Source: a virus. From it: a DNA stretch of 37,971 nt. Below the pieces are notes generated by a model. The model saw only the letters and a list, made by a program, of their open reading frames with translations. It searched no databases and was not told the origin of the DNA. Shown piece after piece: positions 3,551 through 37,971 of this stretch. Each line of letters begins with the position of its first letter. Position 1 is the stretch's first letter. The translations under genes were made by a program, and so were the position numbers. The stretch spans positions 1-37,971 of the IMG/VR virus record IMGVR_UViG_3300032294_000767; one strand, 5' to 3'.

Positions 3551-3575
3551 CCCCTAACCAAGAAAGAAAAACCAA

Positions 3576-3662
3576 ATGACTAAAATCCTAATAGCTTATA
3601 TCATCGGCCTAGTTGTAGGTGCTGGCTCAACCCTTTTCATAGTTGAGCAACTCCTAAAATAA
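3576..3662 (+). CDS. 28-residue membrane microprotein
   Basis: MTKILIAYIIGLVVGAGSTL is a single hydrophobic span followed by a short polar tail ending EQLLK. The upstream AAGAAAGAAAAACC is purine-rich. It fills the gap between two genes precisely. Small single-span phage proteins of this type often act on host membrane complexes, but no function can be assigned. Confidence 0.5.
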   Translation: MTKILIAYIIGLVVGAGSTLFIVEQLLK

Positions 3663-3665
3663 GTC

Positions 3666-3695
3666 TTTACACAACCCCGAGAAATCCTCTATAAA
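3666..3695 (+). promoter_or_regulatory. Candidate sigma70-type promoter before the ligase-like gene
   Basis: TTTACA (3666-3671), 18-base spacer, TATAAA (3690-3695). Each box matches the consensus at five of six positions. Only six bases separate the -10 box from the ATG at 3702, so a transcript from here would be leaderless or nearly so. The first nine bases, TTTACACAA, are repeated in the promoter-like element at 11644. Confidence 0.5.
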
Positions 3696-3701
3696 CAAAC
3701 A

Positions 3702-11141: not shown

Positions 11142-11615
11142 ATGAGTGAAAAACAGATCGGAATGGAGCTACAAAAGACAGTCAAGCAGTTAGAAAAGGC
11201 CAAGGAAAATGCTATACAACAGATGGGGGAGGCCATCGGACTGGCGGCTGACGCTGGCGACATCCTCCTATCGGCAAGGGTGGAGGGGCTAAACCTCGAC
11301 ACCATCCAAGAAATAGCACAAATAAACGGTGAGCAAGCTAGGCGGTATGAGCGTGTGGCAAAGGCAAGGCCATCCCTACAAGCCCCTAGCCCTAGTGGCC
11401 TCAAGCAGTTGGCACTATGGACTGGGCTACTACCCGACCCCATTGAGACCAGCAACCCCAAGGCCGAGCAAGCGTGGCACTCCTACATCATCAAGGCACG
11501 ACAATGGCTGGCAAGAAAGAGCGTAACCCATTGGACACAAGCCCAAAAGACCCAGTTCCTTGATGAAGCACGACCCATAGTAGAGGCATACAAAGAGGCA
11601 GGGGGGGAGCTATGA
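11142..11615 (+). CDS. Hypothetical helical protein
   Basis: 157 residues. A long N-terminal helix (ELQKTVKQLEKAKENAIQQM) is followed by LDTIQEIAQINGEQARRYER, reminiscent of a helix-turn-helix in DUF3102-like regulatory proteins, and a C-terminal helical region. The upstream AAAAGGACATCCTAAAATG places a ribosome site (AAGGA) before the start. It is the last early gene before the non-coding control region. Confidence 0.55.
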   Translation: MSEKQIGMELQKTVKQLEKAKENAIQQMGEAIGLAADAGDILLSARVEGLNLDTIQEIAQINGEQARRYERVAKARPSLQAPSPSGLKQLALWTGLLPDPIETSNPKAEQAWHSYIIKARQWLARKSVTHWTQAQKTQFLDEARPIVEAYKEAGGEL

Positions 11616-11643
11616 TAAAAGGCATATGCGACTTACGCAAGTT

Positions 11644-11673
11644 TTTACACAAGGCACAAGTGCGACTTATAGA
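11644..11673 (+). promoter_or_regulatory. Candidate promoter in the control region
   Basis: TTTACA (11644-11649), 18-base spacer, TATAGA (11668-11673). It shares TTTACACAA and the 18-base spacing with the element at 3666-3695. The second TGCGACTTA copy overlaps the -10 box, where a bound regulator could block or help RNA polymerase. Confidence 0.45.
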
Positions 11674-11682
11674 AGCAGGGTC

Positions 11683-11739
11683 GTTGATTATAGGGTACTT
11701 ATGCATGAGTAGGCATAAGTTGTTGATGCTAGGGTACTT
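11683..11739 (+). repeat. 18-bp direct repeats flanking an inverted repeat
   Basis: GTTGATTATAGGGTACTT (11683-11700) and GTTGATGCTAGGGTACTT (11722-11739) differ at two bases and are 39 bp apart. Between them ACTTATGC (11697-11704), loop ATGAGTAG, GCATAAGT (11713-11720) is a perfect dyad. This layout suggests cooperative regulator sites. Confidence 0.6.
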
Positions 11740-11788
11740 TAGGAGACTCCTACAAGGCCAAACCCTCCCAAACAGGTTCCGAGGTGCG

Positions 11789-11821
11789 AAATTTCTGTAC
11801 GAATTAACCTAGAAATTTTTT
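11789..11821 (+). terminator. Weak AT-rich hairpin with T-tract
   Basis: AAATTTCT (11789-11796), 14-base loop, AGAAATTT (11811-11818), running into six T residues. The stem is AT-rich, so termination would be inefficient. It may attenuate transcripts entering the packaging operon. Confidence 0.3.
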
Positions 11822-11864
11822 GTGTTAAAAATAATCAACAAATCTTGCGTAACTTTTTAGACCT

Positions 11865-12329
11865 ATGAAATATCCCTCTTTAGTAACAAAGAAAATCAGC
11901 GAGCTTTCACCAGCAAAATACAATCCTAGAAAAATTACTTCTGAGGCTTTAGGTAGGCTCACAAAATCTTTGAGCGAACTTGGGAATCTCCAGCCGATAA
12001 CTTGGAACGCAAAAACTGGGAACATAGTCGGAGGCCATCAGAGGTTGAAATGCTACGAAGCACTTGGAAAAGATGAGGTCGATGTGTGGGCGGTGTGGTT
12101 GGATGAGACGCAAGAGAAGGCGGCCAACCTTGCCCTTAACAAGTTGAGTGGTGAATTTGATATGCCACAACTCAAAGACATCCTAGAGGAACTGGATGCA
12201 GGGGAAATCGATATTGATATTACCGGGTTTAGCTTGGATGCGATTGGAAAGATGATGGAGGCAACTAGCCCAGAGGATCAAGAAGGTGGAGGGGGCGAGA
12301 AATGTTTGGCGTGTGGAAAGCCCTTGTGA
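11865..12329 (+). CDS. ParB/Srx-like N-terminal domain protein
   Basis: 154 residues. ISELSPAKYNPRKIT (NPRK at 20-23), then LSELGNLQPITWN and GNIVGGHQRLKCYEALG (GGHQR at 56-60) are the hallmark boxes of the ParB-like nuclease/CTPase fold. Phage proteins of this type sit beside terminase genes and are thought to act on DNA; partition is unlikely without a ParA. The C-terminus carries CLACGKPL, a lone C-x-x-C knuckle. It opens the packaging operon after the control region. Confidence 0.8.
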   Translation: MKYPSLVTKKISELSPAKYNPRKITSEALGRLTKSLSELGNLQPITWNAKTGNIVGGHQRLKCYEALGKDEVDVWAVWLDETQEKAANLALNKLSGEFDMPQLKDILEELDAGEIDIDITGFSLDAIGKMMEATSPEDQEGGGGEKCLACGKPL

Positions 12330-12332
12330 GAA

Positions 12333-12932
12333 ATGCGACAATCAGAACTAGCGAAACTATGGGGAATATCTGGGGCGGCGATAAACAAGCTAGTAAAGGC
12401 GGGTATGCCACTCACAAGCGAGGCAGAGGCTCAAAGCTGGAAGATCGCAAACCAAAAGCGAGTAGGCAGAAAACAACTTCTAATCCCAGCACCATCCCCG
12501 ATCTCCTCAGAGCCATCGAAGGAATCGGATGTCGAGTCATACAAATCGACAAGCTCGCTTGGACGATTGAATCGAGCGAAGCAAGCCGAGGTAGTTGCTT
12601 ACTCGTTGGTAGCTACAGCGGCCACAAACAAAAACCCAGTTGCGATGAGGTCAGCAGTTCAAGGATGGGGAGAAGCAAAAAAGCGAGTCGCAGAGGCCGA
12701 AATGGAACACGCCCGATTCGAGGAAGTAACCAGAGTGCTAGTGAGAATGGACGAGGTGCGAGAAGTGTTCGGCAAATGGCTGGGGGCAATTAGAAACCTA
12801 ATGGACGCTATGCCTTCGAGCTTGGCCGCAAGAGCAAACCCCAGCGACCCAGAATGTGCTAAAAGGGCTATTCAAGAGGGCATCGATCAAATCTTTGTGA
12901 CCATTCAGAAAGCAGAAGGAGCGTTCAAATGA
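12333..12932 (+). CDS. terS: Terminase small subunit (Nu1-like)
   Basis: 199 residues. The N-terminus QSELAKLWGISGAAINKLVK followed by AGMPL is the winged helix-turn-helix of lambda Nu1-type small terminases, which recognise the packaging site. The rest is helical, with a Pro/Ser linker (about 50-70) and a C-terminal helical region (VRMDEVREVFGKWLGAIRNL) for oligomerisation and contact with the large subunit. Position just upstream of the GpA-like large subunit supports this. A 163-codon frame over the same bases is a shadow. Confidence 0.8.
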   Translation: MRQSELAKLWGISGAAINKLVKAGMPLTSEAEAQSWKIANQKRVGRKQLLIPAPSPISSEPSKESDVESYKSTSSLGRLNRAKQAEVVAYSLVATAATNKNPVAMRSAVQGWGEAKKRVAEAEMEHARFEEVTRVLVRMDEVREVFGKWLGAIRNLMDAMPSSLAARANPSDPECAKRAIQEGIDQIFVTIQKAEGAFK

Positions 12933-13003: not shown

Positions 13004-13305
13004 AACGCACCCCACTTAAACGCAAAACCCCACTCAAGCGAGGCGGGAAACTACGCCGAGTATCTGCAAAGAGAAAAGGCCAGAACGAAGTCTATAAAGG
13101 TGTGCGAGAGAAGTTTCTAGGCAACACACCAGTCTGCCAAGTTTGCCAGAGCAACATGGCGAGCCAAGTTCACCATAGGCGAGGTAGGTTCGGGGATAGG
13201 CTAAATGAGGTAGAATTTTTCTTGGCGGTTTGCTTCGAGTGCCATCATCAAATTCATATGAACCCAGCTTGGGCATATGCAAAAGATTATCTGGTTAAGA
13301 GATGA
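13000..13305 (+). CDS. HNH endonuclease
   Basis: 101 residues. A basic N-terminus (KRTPLKRKTPLKRGGKLRR) is followed by the zinc/HNH core: C46-x2-C49, SQVHHRRG (H58, H59), then C78-x2-C81, H82 and H86 (CFECHHQIH). Phage HNH proteins beside terminase genes are known to aid cleavage of packaging DNA at the terminase site, as in HK97 gp74. This one sits directly between TerS and TerL, coupled by ATGA on both sides, so a packaging accessory nuclease is the best call. Confidence 0.85.
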   Translation: MKRTPLKRKTPLKRGGKLRRVSAKRKGQNEVYKGVREKFLGNTPVCQVCQSNMASQVHHRRGRFGDRLNEVEFFLAVCFECHHQIHMNPAWAYAKDYLVKR

Positions 13306-15092
13306 ACCAGATTGATGAAGCCAAGAACTTTGCTCGTCTTTTGTTTGAGCCAAGGGAACAACTTTCAATTCCAGAGTGGGCAGAGAAAAACTTAACGCTT
13401 TCCGCAAGAGTTACAAACATACCCGGAGCATATTCAACAACGCTCACACCCTATGTCCGTGAACCGCTAGAGGCTTTTGGCGATGATTCGATTCGGCGGG
13501 TCGTGTTGGTATGGGGGGCACAAACAAGCAAGACCACAACGATTCTAGCTGGCCTAGCGTACCGAATAGCAGAGCGACCTTGCCCCGCCTTGTGGGTTAT
13601 GCCCAGCGAGCATTTAGCTAGATCGTTCACGGAAACTAGGTGGTTGCCGATGATTGACGATTGCCCAGCCCTAGCCAAAGAGAAACCAGACAACACCGAC
13701 AAAATAAAAATCCTAGAGCAACACTTCAAACGATGCTCGGTCTGGTGGGCTGGCACAAGCCCCTCTGCTCTTTCTAGTCGCTCGATTGCTTTGCTTTGTA
13801 TGGATGAGGTGGACAAGTTCCCAGAGCAAGCGGGGTCGGGTCGAGAAGCCAACCCAGTTCAATTAGCAGAGGCTAGAGTCAGCACCTATCCAAACCATCT
13901 CATCATAGCAACCAGCACCCCGACAACTGCCGATTCGATTATTTGGAGTGAATGGCAAAAGGGCGATATGCGTTTCTACTTTGTTCCTTGTCCTCATTGT
14001 GGGCATAAACAGAAGCTGGTATGGGGGCAAGTGAAGTGGGATGAGTCGGCAAAGATCGAGGATGGCGTTTATGATTTTAAGCTGGTAAAGTCCTCTACCT
14101 ACTACGAGTGCGAGGGGTGTAAGGAAAAGATTACAGACGGACAGAAAACCAAGATGCTTCGAGAGGGCGAGTGGAGGGCAACCAACCTAAAGGGCGAACC
14201 AGCTAGACGCTCCTACCATCTCAACGGCCTATATGCCCCTTGGGTTAGCTTCGGAAGTTTAGCGGTGAAGTTTCTGCAAGACAAGCACAATGGAATCATC
14301 GGCCTACAGGATTTTGTGAACCGAGTTCTAGCCGAGCCTTGGATGGAACACGAAAGCGAGAAGATGGAGATTGTGGCTGGTGACTACAAGATGGGCGAGG
14401 TTCGGATGGGTGAGAAGCTGATTATGGCTTGTGATATTCAAGAGGCAGGGGGCTTCCACGCTTGGTGTGTTGTAAGGGCTTGGGATTTGGAGGGTAGGTC
14501 AAGGCTTGTGTGGGCAGGGCGGTTGGAAACTTGGGGAGACATCCAAGCCAAGGCAGAGGAGTTTGGGGTAGAGCATAAATGCGTTTTCTGCGATTCGGGC
14601 GATCAAACTAGAGATGTTTATTTGAATTGTTGTAAGAATGGCTGGATGGCGTTGGTCGGTTCAGATCGAGCCAGCTTCTCCGAAATTGTAGATGATCGAA
14701 AGCTCCAACGCCCCTACGCTAGAATCGCAAATGGAGACCCCTTTAGCGGTAAGGCAGTTCAATCCAAGACTGGATGGAAGTGGAAATTCTGCCCAGTTTG
14801 GCGGTGGTCGAATCCATCCATCAAAGACATCCTATCCAACCTATTAAAAGAACCCGGCTACATAGCTTTGGATACCCCAGATGTTTGGCGAGTGCATATC
14901 GAAGCAGAAGTGAAGGTGCGGGTGAAAAATCCTATGACTGGAAGGGAAAGGCTTGTATGGAAGCAGATAGGGAAAAATAATCATTTGTTGGATTGCGAGT
15001 GTATGGCAATCGTGGGTGCGGCCTTATATGGTCGATTGAAAGTCTCCCCCGCAAGTTTGACAGAAAGTGAGTTTGATAATGGCGAAGGGTGA
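13302..15092 (+). CDS. terL: Terminase large subunit (lambda GpA-like)
   Basis: 596 residues. The ATPase part has Walker A GAQTSKTT (72-79), adenine-side motif WVMPSEHLARSF, Walker B ALLCMDEV (D168, E169) and the coupling strand IIATSTPTTADSII. A zinc-finger-like insert follows (C230-x2-C233, then CEGC). The nuclease part has MACDIQEAGGF (D378) and FCDSGDQT (D431). The protein powers DNA translocation into the prohead and cuts genome ends. GpA-type terminases often make cohesive ends, so a cos site near the control region or TerS gene is plausible but not located. Confidence 0.95.
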   Translation: MNQIDEAKNFARLLFEPREQLSIPEWAEKNLTLSARVTNIPGAYSTTLTPYVREPLEAFGDDSIRRVVLVWGAQTSKTTTILAGLAYRIAERPCPALWVMPSEHLARSFTETRWLPMIDDCPALAKEKPDNTDKIKILEQHFKRCSVWWAGTSPSALSSRSIALLCMDEVDKFPEQAGSGREANPVQLAEARVSTYPNHLIIATSTPTTADSIIWSEWQKGDMRFYFVPCPHCGHKQKLVWGQVKWDESAKIEDGVYDFKLVKSSTYYECEGCKEKITDGQKTKMLREGEWRATNLKGEPARRSYHLNGLYAPWVSFGSLAVKFLQDKHNGIIGLQDFVNRVLAEPWMEHESEKMEIVAGDYKMGEVRMGEKLIMACDIQEAGGFHAWCVVRAWDLEGRSRLVWAGRLETWGDIQAKAEEFGVEHKCVFCDSGDQTRDVYLNCCKNGWMALVGSDRASFSEIVDDRKLQRPYARIANGDPFSGKAVQSKTGWKWKFCPVWRWSNPSIKDILSNLLKEPGYIALDTPDVWRVHIEAEVKVRVKNPMTGRERLVWKQIGKNNHLLDCECMAIVGAALYGRLKVSPASLTESEFDNGEG

Positions 15093-29100: not shown

Positions 29101-29228
29101 TGCCCATCCTCCTCATCGCCCTCTTGCTCTGCTCCTGCTCGCCAAAGCCAGTAGATCATAATAATGTGTTACCACGATATTCTGATATGGGGGCGGCCTC
29201 TGACTTGGAAAAGACACCGAGCAAATGA
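29100..29228 (+). CDS. 42-residue lipoprotein
   Basis: The ATG shares one base with the previous stop (TAATG). MPILLIALLLCSCSPKPVD is a very short signal with lipobox LCSC, giving a lipidated Cys at residue 13 and about 30 exported residues. Small phage lipoproteins can act in superinfection exclusion or as a second o-spanin. The gene ends in an ATGA overlap. Confidence 0.55.
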   Translation: MPILLIALLLCSCSPKPVDHNNVLPRYSDMGAASDLEKTPSK

Positions 29229-29365
29229 AATACCAATACACTTACGAGGACTTTATGTATTCCCTAAAATGGCTTTGCGATGAGGGCTACATAGAGAAGT
29301 TCATAGATGAAGATGGGAATACCTGCTTCCGTATCTGCGAAGGAGCAGAGGATTGTGAGATATGA
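29225..29365 (+). CDS. 46-residue hypothetical protein
   Basis: Begins MKYQYTYEDFMYSLKWLCDE and ends FRICEGAEDCEI. Acidic, with three Cys residues and no membrane segment. It overlaps both neighbours by ATGA, which supports it as a real coupled gene. The function is unknown. Confidence 0.55.
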   Translation: MKYQYTYEDFMYSLKWLCDEGYIEKFIDEDGNTCFRICEGAEDCEI

Positions 29366-31132: not shown

Positions 31133-31335
31133 TACAGCCAGCCGGGATTGCTTCGTCCGTCTGGCTATTCGCAAAGGAGTTCGGTTGGACAGCAGAGCAA
31201 GTGTTGTGGGAGATGGCAGAGGTGCAACTTGTTCAGCTAGAACACGCTATGCTTGTCAATCGTGGGATTGATGTCAGAAGGCACAACTCTAACGCAGTAA
31301 ATATAATTGATGATATTCTTGACGATAGACAATAA
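30752..31335 (+). CDS. Tail assembly chaperone, -1 frameshift product (gpGT-like)
   Basis: Slipping back one base at CCCAAAA (31123-31129) bypasses the TAG at 31130 and enters a 68-codon frame ending at TAA 31335, giving a 194-residue fusion. The added part (SSVWLFAKEFGWTAEQVLWE, then QLEHAMLVNRG, then NIIDDILDDRQ) resembles the T-domain of G/GT chaperones. This extension has no start codon or ribosome site at its beginning, so it is otherwise an unexplained open stretch. The tape measure block follows. Confidence 0.78.
31123..31166 (+). promoter_or_regulatory. Programmed -1 ribosomal frameshift signal
   Basis: Slippery heptamer C-CCA-AAA in the zero frame (31123-31129), a 6-base spacer including the stop TAG, then a hairpin: AGCCAG (31136-31141) pairs with CTGGCT (31161-31166) and CGG (31143-31145) with CCG (31157-31159), with one C/T mismatch between. 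Heptamer, spacer length and stem all match the known layout. Confidence 0.78.
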
Positions 31336-34309: not shown

Positions 34310-37300
34310 GTGAACTCTCAAGAGCTATTTCTGGATGTGTCTAGCGGGAGATTTTTGGATGGTCAAAGCACCATCCCAATTAGCAAGCCAACAATATTTT
34401 CTGATGAGCAAAGGAATCTAAAAATCAATGTTCTTCAAGTAAATAAAAATGTTGTTAGCCCAAAGCAACCGGCTGATGACAGTTCTTTTAGGGCTAGGCT
34501 TGGTACTACGGCATTGAAACTGTCAGATGGTCAAGCCGTAAGCACACAGCCAATCAACACGACTAGAGCTACTGCAACAATAGTGACATCGCCAGCATCT
34601 AGGACAGTTGGTTCAGCTAGGATATTTACATATACACCAGTAACAGCTAATATTATTTCCTCGATAGCAACCTTTCCAATCGTTACTGGGGTATTTAGAT
34701 TGAATGTTGATTATGTTGCACCAGTCACAGCAAGTGTTACGGCAGGGTTTGCAATACCCACGCCAACCATAATTACTCGACCCCTTCAATATGTGGATTC
34801 TGGGATTGCGGCTAGTTATGAATTATCAGACAATTCAGTAAGAGTTAATCCAGACCTAGCGCAATCATTAAACACGACAACAACAGCAACATTTGTTTCT
34901 TCTATTTTGTCTGGTGAGGTTGTTGGTATAAATATTATAAATAGGGGCAGGGGCTATCCAAATGGAACTTATAGCTTAAATGTTTCTCCATCTATAACAA
35001 CTGGGGCAAGCTTTACCGCAACAGTGTCTGGTGGTGTGGTTACAACAATATCAATCGTCACTGGTGGATTTGGTTATTCAAACGGCCCATTTGATTTAGT
35101 ATTTAGTGCAACTACTGGAACTCCTGCGGCGGCAACCGCATCAGCCGTAAGCGGCTCAATCAATCAAATAACTATTACTGATGGTGGAACTGACTATTTG
35201 ACTGCCCCAAGCGTAACCCTTGCCGCACCAACAGCAGGAACAGCGGTTGCAACAGTTGTTGCAAGTGGTGGTTTTATCCAGTCACTAACAATAACAAGCG
35301 GAGGATTTGGATATACAAATGCTCCAACTGTAACGCTTTTCCAGCCCACTAAATCATTGGCTAGTCTTACTAATCAGATTGTAGATTTGGGTTGTAAGGG
35401 GGTTAATACAAACACGATTTCACTTGAATTCAGCGACCCAGATGGAGGTCAGACACCACCCACATCTAAAAGACCAGTTGCATCAATACAATATACTGGT
35501 GATAGCACCTTGTGGAGAATTATTATTAGCGATGTTGGGTATGGCTATTCCGCAACTCCAACAGTATCACACGGAGATATTTTGGCATATTTGCCAGTAA
35601 TAAAATCTGGGTTTTCTGTAACGGATTTAACAGATGTACGAAATGTTAATAATGTATTATCATTGCTTGGCGATACCACAGCTTATGGTGGGGGCAGTTT
35701 TAGTAATGTTCAAAACAGCACTATTACTACTTTTTCTGAAACTGCTGCAAAAATTAACCTTGGTGGACTTAAAATTGGATTTGACCCCCGCACATTATTT
35801 GTCGAGAATAGCAAATGGATTACTGGCGGCTATTCACTTGATAACGCATTCCGATATGTAGTTGCAGACAAAACATCTAGAGGTCAGAGGAGTGATGACA
35901 AAAGAATTCAAAAGGCCCTTCAGTCGGCATCGGGAGTAATTAACAAATCAGCGGAGCTTCTAAATTCTGTTGGCGTTGTTGTAACTGGCTCTATTTACGA
36001 CCCCCAACAAAATAGAGTATTTACACCAGCAGAATCTAGCGGGCTACCTAGTTCTGGGGCTATTAGTGCGGAAGCGTATAAAAAATATTTCCCCCAAGGA
36101 ACAAAAACAAGCATAAGGGGTGTTACTGTGGTCGGCAGTAAGGTTGGCCTACCTGCAAGTGCGAACACTAATGATGTCTCTAATTTCCCAAATCCACAAC
36201 ACGATAAATTTGCTGGTAAAAGTGCCTTGGTTGCCCTTGTCCCAAAAGATAGGAGCATTGTCCCGACAAGATATGCGGTTATGCAGATTGTTATTCCACC
36301 AAGAGATACATCGTATCTAGTTTCTGTTTTAGACTTTAATCCAAGCAATCAATCTTATGTGGACTTTGGAGGTGGAAGATATACACCAGAGTTTAGGGTA
36401 TTGGATGCTGGTGCTGGATATCCAGCAACATATACTAAATCATACGACCTAGTTGAGCTTGGTTCGCTGACCAGCGACCCAGTTATATTTGAATTTAGCG
36501 GCACTACTGTTTATACTATGCCAGCGACTCTTGCCGATGGATTTATTGATACGGCTTTTTCCAATCCAGCCAGCATCGCCACTCGCCCCGGCCCAGCCGC
36601 TGTGCAATATCTATTGGGTGGCGGGGGTGTTGGATACACCAGAAGCACAAATATTGCATTCCAAAGCGTCCAAACTCTTGGCTTGGTTCGATCTGTCAGT
36701 CTGCTTAATGCTCCAGCCTCTTATTCAGATGGGACATATAGCTGTTCTGTGCAAGCCCCTGCCTCTGGAACGGCGGCACAAATAGACTTAATTGTTAGTA
36801 GGGGCGGGACAAAATCTCAAATTGTTGTTGTAAATGGTGGTAGCGGATATACTTCTGCTCCCATTGTTACCGCCCCAGCACCAAACTTTATTAGTGGTCA
36901 AGTGAGAAGTGTTTCTGTTTTGACTCAACCTCAAGGATATTCCATTGGGCAATCATTCTCCCTTTCAGTTCCGACCAGCCCGATTGACGGAGGACAAGCC
37001 GCTGTTCTGTTCACACAATCTGACTCTGGCTCTGTAAGCGTAGTTATTGAAAACCCCGGCTTTGGATACCAAACAGCACAAGTTGCCACAGCACCAGACC
37101 CAGATAGGAGATTAGAATCTGGATTCTTAAATACCCTCGAATTGCAAAATAGCCCTAACGGATACATAGTTGGACAATCTTACTCCTTGCAAATTGGGCA
37201 AAGCCCACAATCGGGAGGAAACGCAGTTGCAAATCTTATTAAAGAATCAGAATCTAAATATATATTCCAGATAGTCAATGCTGGTGCTGGATATGTCTCT

Positions 37301-37945
37301 GCCCCTATTGTAACAGCACCAAGCCCAGACGCACCCAATGGACTGCTTTCGTCAGTAGCTATAACGACTATGGGTGCTGGGTACGCACCGGGAACATATG
37401 AAGCCACAGTCGGCACAGCTCCGTCTGGGGGGCAGACTGCCAAGGTTGATTATGTTGTTGATGAGAATTTGAGTGGTGAATATATTATTGTGGAGAGCGG
37501 TAAGGGATATACTTCAGCACCATCTATTTCTGTTCCGACCCCAGCAGGGTCTGTCATTTCCTCTATTTCTATCACTTGTGCTGGCTCTTATTATACTAGC
37601 GATAATTATGGTGTGACAATCCAAGATGCGACTGGTTCTGGTGCTAGGCTAGATGTCCCGACAATACAGAATGGGCAGTTACAAAATATCAATGTTCTAG
37701 ATAAGGGTTATGGTTTTACAGATAACCCAGCAATTATTTTCCCCAAGCCTCCCATACCACAAACTCCACAGTTACAAAGAAATCAACTAGACCTAACCTT
37801 CAACATCACCACCGCCTCGGCCAACGCCATCTTATCCACAGCTACGCAAAGAGACATCCTAATGGAAGTCTACGAGACGGACGGAACGAACGAACAAGTT
37901 GTGGCACAAGCCACTGTAAATCTAGCCAAGCGAGTTTTAGAATAG
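34310..37945 (+). CDS. Large repeat-rich tail protein (fibre or tip)
   Basis: 1211 residues from GTG 34310. Gly/Tyr repeats of two alternating kinds occur at about 207-345, 400-415 and 698-1140: type A like GYSxGxYxLxVxxAPxSGxxA and type B like INxGxGYTSAPIVTAPxP. At least 16 units are visible. A non-repeat domain (about 430-690) includes KINLGGLKIGFDPRTLF and YAVMQIVIPPRD. The last 60 residues (LDLTFNITTASANAILSTAT) are a separate end domain. Such GGxGYxxAP repeats occur in large phage structural proteins. It is probably a tail fibre or tip that sets host contact. The gene is continued by bases 1-97. Confidence 0.82.
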   Translation: MNSQELFLDVSSGRFLDGQSTIPISKPTIFSDEQRNLKINVLQVNKNVVSPKQPADDSSFRARLGTTALKLSDGQAVSTQPINTTRATATIVTSPASRTVGSARIFTYTPVTANIISSIATFPIVTGVFRLNVDYVAPVTASVTAGFAIPTPTIITRPLQYVDSGIAASYELSDNSVRVNPDLAQSLNTTTTATFVSSILSGEVVGINIINRGRGYPNGTYSLNVSPSITTGASFTATVSGGVVTTISIVTGGFGYSNGPFDLVFSATTGTPAAATASAVSGSINQITITDGGTDYLTAPSVTLAAPTAGTAVATVVASGGFIQSLTITSGGFGYTNAPTVTLFQPTKSLASLTNQIVDLGCKGVNTNTISLEFSDPDGGQTPPTSKRPVASIQYTGDSTLWRIIISDVGYGYSATPTVSHGDILAYLPVIKSGFSVTDLTDVRNVNNVLSLLGDTTAYGGGSFSNVQNSTITTFSETAAKINLGGLKIGFDPRTLFVENSKWITGGYSLDNAFRYVVADKTSRGQRSDDKRIQKALQSASGVINKSAELLNSVGVVVTGSIYDPQQNRVFTPAESSGLPSSGAISAEAYKKYFPQGTKTSIRGVTVVGSKVGLPASANTNDVSNFPNPQHDKFAGKSALVALVPKDRSIVPTRYAVMQIVIPPRDTSYLVSVLDFNPSNQSYVDFGGGRYTPEFRVLDAGAGYPATYTKSYDLVELGSLTSDPVIFEFSGTTVYTMPATLADGFIDTAFSNPASIATRPGPAAVQYLLGGGGVGYTRSTNIAFQSVQTLGLVRSVSLLNAPASYSDGTYSCSVQAPASGTAAQIDLIVSRGGTKSQIVVVNGGSGYTSAPIVTAPAPNFISGQVRSVSVLTQPQGYSIGQSFSLSVPTSPIDGGQAAVLFTQSDSGSVSVVIENPGFGYQTAQVATAPDPDRRLESGFLNTLELQNSPNGYIVGQSYSLQIGQSPQSGGNAVANLIKESESKYIFQIVNAGAGYVSAPIVTAPSPDAPNGLLSSVAITTMGAGYAPGTYEATVGTAPSGGQTAKVDYVVDENLSGEYIIVESGKGYTSAPSISVPTPAGSVISSISITCAGSYYTSDNYGVTIQDATGSGARLDVPTIQNGQLQNINVLDKGYGFTDNPAIIFPKPPIPQTPQLQRNQLDLTFNITTASANAILSTATQRDILMEVYETDGTNEQVVAQATVNLAKRVLE

Positions 37946-37971
37946 CCTTGGGGCAGATGCCCTAACGAAAT
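37849..37971. repeat. Terminal direct repeat (circular-contig overlap), copy 2
   Basis: Exact copy of bases 1-123, covering the 3' end of the large tail gene and the following hairpin. It shows the molecule is circular or circularly permuted and complete. Confidence 0.93.

Follow-up and report, generated by a model that had tools for sequence, protein, structure and literature searches.

A divergent lambda-style cos site with short cohesive ends and diversified candidate cosB/TerS types in an uncultured phage group

What is the function of the non-coding stretch at positions 11616-11864 of the virus record IMGVR_UViG_3300032294_000767 (37,971 nucleotides, the whole of which is called the window here)? 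A preliminary description of this DNA proposed a control region combining a late promoter with terminase recognition (cos or pac). The gap does lie at the boundary between replication and packaging, as had been stated, with early or replication-side genes on one side and terminase genes on the other (Table 1). It was also said to be the only sizeable non-coding region, which is incorrect. A non-coding-looking gap of 261 bp at 29101-29361 exceeds it, and other gaps lie at 31133-31306 (174 bp) and 3551-3701 (151 bp). A 66-aa open reading frame filling the gap (11612-11812) was rejected as a gene. This frame spans the cut described below, and its length ranges from 24 to 73 aa across relatives. 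Its mismatches at codon positions 1, 2 and 3 number 29, 44 and 31, as against 123, 106 and 457 in the upstream gene, and it shows no coding constraint. Downstream, the terminase large subunit (TerL) has GpA_ATPase and GpA_nuclease domains. A gpA-type TerL together with a Nu1-type small subunit (TerS), the latter a weak match, corresponds to a lambda-like terminase; a search from TerS by sequence gave no PDB match to lambda gpNu1. In many relatives, for instance L004, L018, L021 and L025, terS is set apart from the ParB-like gene by inserts of about 0.7-1 kb, and additional inserts were seen between terS and terL.

The position of the genome ends was sought in assembled IMG/VR contigs and by sequence comparison, with contig ends standing in for read ends. 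According to the PhageTerm study (PMC5557969), cos ends come to lie at the limits of assembled contigs, except where contaminating circular or prophage DNA is present. A TerL protein search gave 80 close IMG/VR relatives (identity 94-100% over the best segment). When contig starts were read directly, 30 TerL-side contigs from 25 metagenomes had GGTTCC as their first bases, which is exactly window position 11775. Simple blast mapping placed 22 contig starts at 11775 and used any other position at most twice. Right-arm contigs were gathered by a search with the gene that flanks the gap on its opposite side. Eighteen of them, drawn from 16 metagenomes, stop precisely 9 or 10 nt beyond the 11775 start point, with the end sequences GGTTCCGAGG (8 contigs), GGTTCCCAC (5), GGTTCCGAC (3), GGTTCCTAGG (1) and GGTTCCAAAC (1). 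About half of the relatives have 9-nt instead of 10-nt ends. Three complete linear contigs carry one sequence at both ends: GGTTCCGAGG (10 nt) in G002 (34,765 bp), GGTTCCAAAC (10 nt) in G016 (35,975 bp) and GGTTCCCAC (9 nt) in G003 (37,477 bp). Furthermore, an Illumina adapter abuts GGTTCC directly in L029, and the first three adapter bases (AGA) directly follow GGTTCCGAC in L096.

When libraries are end-repaired, 5' overhangs are filled in and the cohesive sequence appears at both ends, whereas 3' overhangs are removed (PhageTerm, PMC5557969). By this logic, the identical 9 or 10 nt at both ends point to short complementary overhangs of the 5' type, and the nicks would have 5' polarity. The 30 left-end and 18 right-end contigs define unique, fixed termini at one site. 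The preliminary description had proposed a read-end pile-up as a check on terminase recognition. As approximated with contig ends, the ends cluster inside 11616-11864 and not elsewhere, which sharpens that claim to cos, not pac, with a cut at 11774/11775. Some relatives, and the window itself, assemble across the cut site, as is expected for intracellular circular or concatemeric DNA. Two kinds of irregular end were also seen. In L247 and L248 (contig G014, 35,011 bp), adapter-like sequence joins the left end 7 nt inside the overhang and the right end keeps its full 9 nt, suggesting that one overhang was partly lost during library making. In L020 (1-70) and L030 (3-67), a short inverted copy of terS (window 12676-12745) is joined to the left arm at the contig start, which looks like an amplification or assembly chimera.

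Table 1. Features in and around the gap (window coordinates; signed positions are relative to the top-strand cut)
Feature	Position	Strand	Details
Upstream gene	11142-11615		157 aa, no assigned function
Gap between genes	11616-11864
Variable block	11616-11737		TGCGACTTA pair and, of the two TAGGGTACTT copies, the first and part of the other; from alignments of relatives
Dyad TAGGAGACTCCTA, candidate cosQ	11740-11752		GACTCCT at -30..-24
AACA flank, left of the top-strand cut	11771-11774	+	Counts at -4..-1: A48, A52, C53, A51 of 54
Cohesive end GGTTCCGAGG	11775-11784	+	Top-strand cut 11774/11775; predicted bottom-strand cut 11784/11785; 10-nt 5' overhang
Conserved spacer, bottom-strand cut to half-site 1	11785-11803	+	TGCGAAATTTCTGTACGAA; family consensus CGCGACTTTTTTGTGCGAG
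Candidate cosB half-site 1, TTAAC	11804-11808 (+30..+34)	+	Core varies with the TerS recognition helix
Candidate cosB half-site 2, GTTAA	11824-11828 (+50..+54)	-	Inverted copy; compensatory change
CTTGCGTAAC element	11844-11853		Shortly precedes the ParB-like gene in most left arms; inverse of TTACGCAAG (11633-11641)
ParB-like gene, separating candidate cosB from terS	11865-12329	+	phrog_620, E 1.3e-41
Terminase small subunit (TerS)	12333-12932	+	phrog_57, E 2.2e-11
Terminase large subunit (TerL), lambda gpA type	13302-15092	+	PF05876, PF20454, phrog_15

How is this cut recognised? On the right, the bottom-strand cut is followed by C/T-GCGA-CTTTTTTGTGCGAG. The anchor on this side lies 25 nt from the top cut in 9-nt members and 26 nt in 10-nt members, and its distance from the bottom cut is therefore constant. 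On the left, the distance from the dyad at 11740-11752 to the top cut is usually one longer in 9-nt members (anchor 33 vs 32). The dyad thus usually keeps a constant spacing from the bottom cut as well, and it is the top nick, AACA/GGTTCC, that has shifted by one base. Beyond the spacer, two half-sites form an inverted repeat whose arms change together across the aligned relatives, as in TTAAC/GTTAA, TTGAC/GTCAA and GTTTC/GAAAC. Paired bases make up 87.9% of cells compared with 70.4% in shuffles (0/500 shuffles), and 19 cells are changed on both sides compared with 4.8 in shuffles; shifted registers score far lower. This count omits the class of the window itself, in which the half-site spacing is one base longer. 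In the TTTAG class, there is a one-base mismatch between the half-sites. For the TTTAG rows and a few others, in which the automatic finder put the second half-site in the wrong place, the assignment was made by eye from the alignment. The CTTGCGTAAC element farther right is missing in L054, L067, L074, L118 and L119.

The half-site core was found to follow the recognition helix of TerS, a variable part of its N-terminal HTH-like region (WGISGAAINKLVKAGMP) that differs in type among relatives. Twelve helix types occur in 55 distinct rows, and each has one core. The core is TTGAC with helix DAGQLSR (17 rows), TTAAC with NVSRAAIS (10 rows) and GISGAAIN (7 rows), TTTCC with LVKSEIS (8 rows) and TTTAG with LT[RK]GAISQ (5 rows); the remaining rows hold rarer types, each likewise with one core. 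Helices scanned later agree: VSRARICT has TTAAC, the same as ISRARVCT, and MDKGQISK has TTGTA again in three more loci, whose cut-site sequences differ. The sequence of the cut site assorts freely with TerS type (L292). At least six cores occur among relatives (TTAAC, TTGAC, TTGAT, TTTCC, TTTAG and TTGTA). Most relatives bearing differing cores have TerL proteins at least 94% identical. Several cores occur within one metagenome, and four TerS helix types were found among the cos-ended contigs of metagenome 3300022752. In a partial Mantel test, which does not remove shared ancestry, core and helix correlate at 0.44 given ParB (0/2000 permutations); core and ParB given helix correlate at -0.04. 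One pair of relatives, L003 and L001, illustrates this pattern. Their ParB proteins are 98.7% alike, and their half-site cores and TerS helices differ. In 50-bp steps, their DNA agrees at 60-72% over +1..+100, at 84-100% through ParB and at 50-70% over +551..+750 (70% in the last step), where the DNA-reading region of TerS begins.

Because the half-sites change together and the core follows the TerS helix despite a conserved ParB, the inverted repeat at 11804-11828 is likely the docking site of TerS (cosB). Could the repeat instead be an RNA hairpin in the ParB-terS leader, or an autoregulatory operator with no part in packaging? Complementary half-sites with compensatory changes would equally be expected of an RNA stem or of a dimer operator. 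The stem, however, has only 5-6 pairs around a 14-15 nt gap, the repeat keeps a constant distance from the bottom cut, and its sequence tracks the TerS recognition helix and not the adjacent ParB gene. This alternative is considered unlikely, and an operator role for TerS itself could coexist with docking at the same repeat. With the repeat read as a docking site, recognition appears to be type-specific, each kind of phage reading the DNA of its own kind. A further proposal is that half-sites and TerS recognition domain form a matched module exchanged around the ParB-like gene, with TerL, cosN and the cosQ-like dyad held in common, and that the modules are natural compatibility types. We put this at somewhat short of an even chance.

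To the left of the cut, the repeats are present as first described. The TGCGACTTA pair lies at 11627 and 11661 (34 bp apart), and the GTTGATnnTAGGGTACTT pair within 11680-11700 and 11719-11739 (39 bp apart, 18/21 identical). The dyad CTTATGC...GCATAAG lies at 11698-11719 and the palindrome TAGGAG-A-CTCCTA at 11740-11752. Among 400 dinucleotide shuffles, exact 9-mer repeats were as numerous as observed in 12 and a 21-mer repeat was as good in one; a chance origin is unlikely for the GTTGATnnTAGGGTACTT repeat, and the case of TGCGACTTA against chance is marginal. Are these repeats the core of a packaging signal? Most lie in the variable block at 11616-11737, which differs among about 55 aligned relatives and is missing in several. 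In L087 and L045, for instance, the block is gone and the preceding gene has its stop codon near the dyad at 11740-11752. Since the block varies and can be missing, it is not the functional core, and the repeats were rejected in that role. The dyad at 11740-11752 (TTAGGARRCTYCY-like) is among the best-conserved blocks of the right arm and is probably cosQ, judging from its sequence and position.

Elements resembling ACTTACGCAAG (TGCGACTTACGCAAG-like) were scanned for with 2 mismatches allowed. The window holds 18 matches compared with 7.9 expected, and none of 100 shuffles reached as many. Copies in the gap lie at 11627-11641, 11697-11707 and 11844-11854, and further copies lie elsewhere in the window. 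Some relatives have up to three copies in their right arms and others have none. These elements are possibly the binding site of some protein. Their enrichment, with several copies in a gap between early and late genes, speaks for a gap devoted mainly to transcription control, with repeats bound by phage regulators at a late promoter or operator and an incidental cut site. Yet the block that bears elements is missing in relatives such as L087 and L045, and a promoter would not explain why contig ends cluster in the gap. The promoter-like element noted earlier was not recovered by a sigma-70 consensus scan of the gap, no terminator was found there, and an Rfam search returned nothing useful. 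Late-promoter control from the gap has no support, and a mainly regulatory gap is improbable, slightly more so than the hairpin or operator.

Taken as a whole, the reading of the gap as a cos site is held with high confidence. It draws directly on the fixed termini, the common terminal 9 or 10 nt, the conserved flanks, the covarying half-sites and the match between helix and half-site. A terminase of the lambda gpA type would recognise head-to-tail phage DNA at the gap, with TerS sitting on the inverted repeat (cosB). TerL would nick the top strand at 11774/11775 and the bottom strand at 11784/11785, a stagger that gives the 10-nt 5' cohesive ends. On this reading, the terS/terL side is the left end of the chromosome and, as with lambda, is presumably the first part to be packaged. 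The dyad at 11740-11752 would probably act as cosQ when the next cos arrives. Two other packaging modes are very improbable. Direct terminal repeats are suggested by an exact 123-bp repeat at the window ends (1-123 and 37849-37971 are identical), yet this repeat lies in the region of the gene at 34310-37945, three relatives (G015, G001 and G005) read through it as a single copy, and relatives end at 11775 instead, where the physical ends share only 9 or 10 nt and no long direct repeat. It follows from the end identity and the single-copy relatives that the window was assembled as a circle, that the genome is 37,848 bp long and that the 123 bp are an assembly overlap, not a physical repeat. Headful packaging starting near the gap would suit the position of TerS and TerL just downstream, since pac sites are commonly located within or close to terS, yet both arms end at fixed bases, right ends at +9 or +10 are not permuted or heterogeneous, and the linear contigs have identical 9/10-nt ends with no permuted redundancy.

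How does this site compare with characterised cos systems? A DNA search in named phages and a TerS search gave no match, and among the matches listed, TerL relatives are at most about 34% identical. A host search of genome contigs found no relative. Akkermansia phage Moulinsart was tried as an end comparison and set aside, as its record ends are uninformative. A lambda-like cosQ is 7 bp long, highly conserved and located left of cosN. GACTCCT here and lambda cosQ GGGTCCT both occupy -30..-24 (lambda record right end) and agree at 5/7 bases. As in lambda, a gpA-type TerL is paired with a Nu1-family TerS (weak match), the cut lies directly upstream of the terminase genes, and a common terminal sequence is found, as from 5' cohesive ends. 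The CGCGnnTTTT-like sequence right of the bottom cut is comparable with lambda CGCGGGTTTTCGC at the same place. In lambda, cos is composed of cosQ, cosN and cosB, and TerS, by binding cosB, brings TerL into place for nicking cosN (PMC4669245). The predicted TerS-specific site here is likewise right of the cut, on the terS side, and tracks the TerS helix.

The site also differs from lambda. The ends are 9 or 10 nt (GGTTCCGAGG or GGTTCCGAC) and of different sequence, whereas those of lambda are 12 nt. Between cos and terS lies a ParB-like gene, joined in some relatives by other genes. The candidate cosB consists of a single compact inverted repeat (+30..+54), unlike the R3-I1-R2-R1 array of lambda, in which R3 covers bp 50-65 at a critical distance from cosN (PMC9026076). 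Just one conserved inverted repeat was seen in the 80 bp that precede the next gene, a stretch in which the three R sites of lambda and the IHF site separating R3 from R2 were not found. Two-fold rotational symmetry covers 10/16 bp of lambda cosN (PMC9026076); in CA/GGTTCCGAGG/TG, mirrored pairs number 3/7, fewer than in lambda. Given the 9/10-nt ends, the lack of an R3-I1-R2-R1 array and the weaker cosN symmetry, the site falls outside the lambda-like cos group in its published definition. Phage N15 has a cosB of one critical R3 and a distant inverted copy. The site resembles it in having a simple cosB without the three-site-plus-IHF layout, and differs in having two inverted half-sites whose starts are 20 bp apart. 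Lambda and 21 have common cosQ and cosN and differ in recognition helix and R sites (PMC4669245). The specificity types of lambda, 21 and N15 likewise combine common cosQ/cosN with a helix and cosB site that differ together (PMC4669245), and in contrast to that set, at least six cores with predicted specificity occur here among relatives, with several in one metagenome. As far as sequence can show, the mode of working is the same as in the lambda system, and the site is best described as a divergent cos of the lambda style, with short ends (9/10 nt) and candidate cosB/TerS types that have diversified in nature.

An uncultured phage group has thus gained defined genome ends, an overhang length and a candidate packaging-recognition site from assemblies alone, and contig ends pooled across many metagenomes can map cos to the base. 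The 9- and 10-nt ends of close relatives indicate a top nick that moves with AACA/GGTTCC while the bottom nick usually keeps its distance from the dyad. Furthermore, the relatives offer a natural series of matched helix/DNA-site pairs, with over a dozen helix variants and at least six cores. How does terminase specificity evolve, and what limits cross-packaging? The matched pairs are useful for both questions. If the types are true compatibility types, their coexistence in one habitat would stop co-infecting relatives from packaging each other's DNA, and the types may be under diversifying selection.
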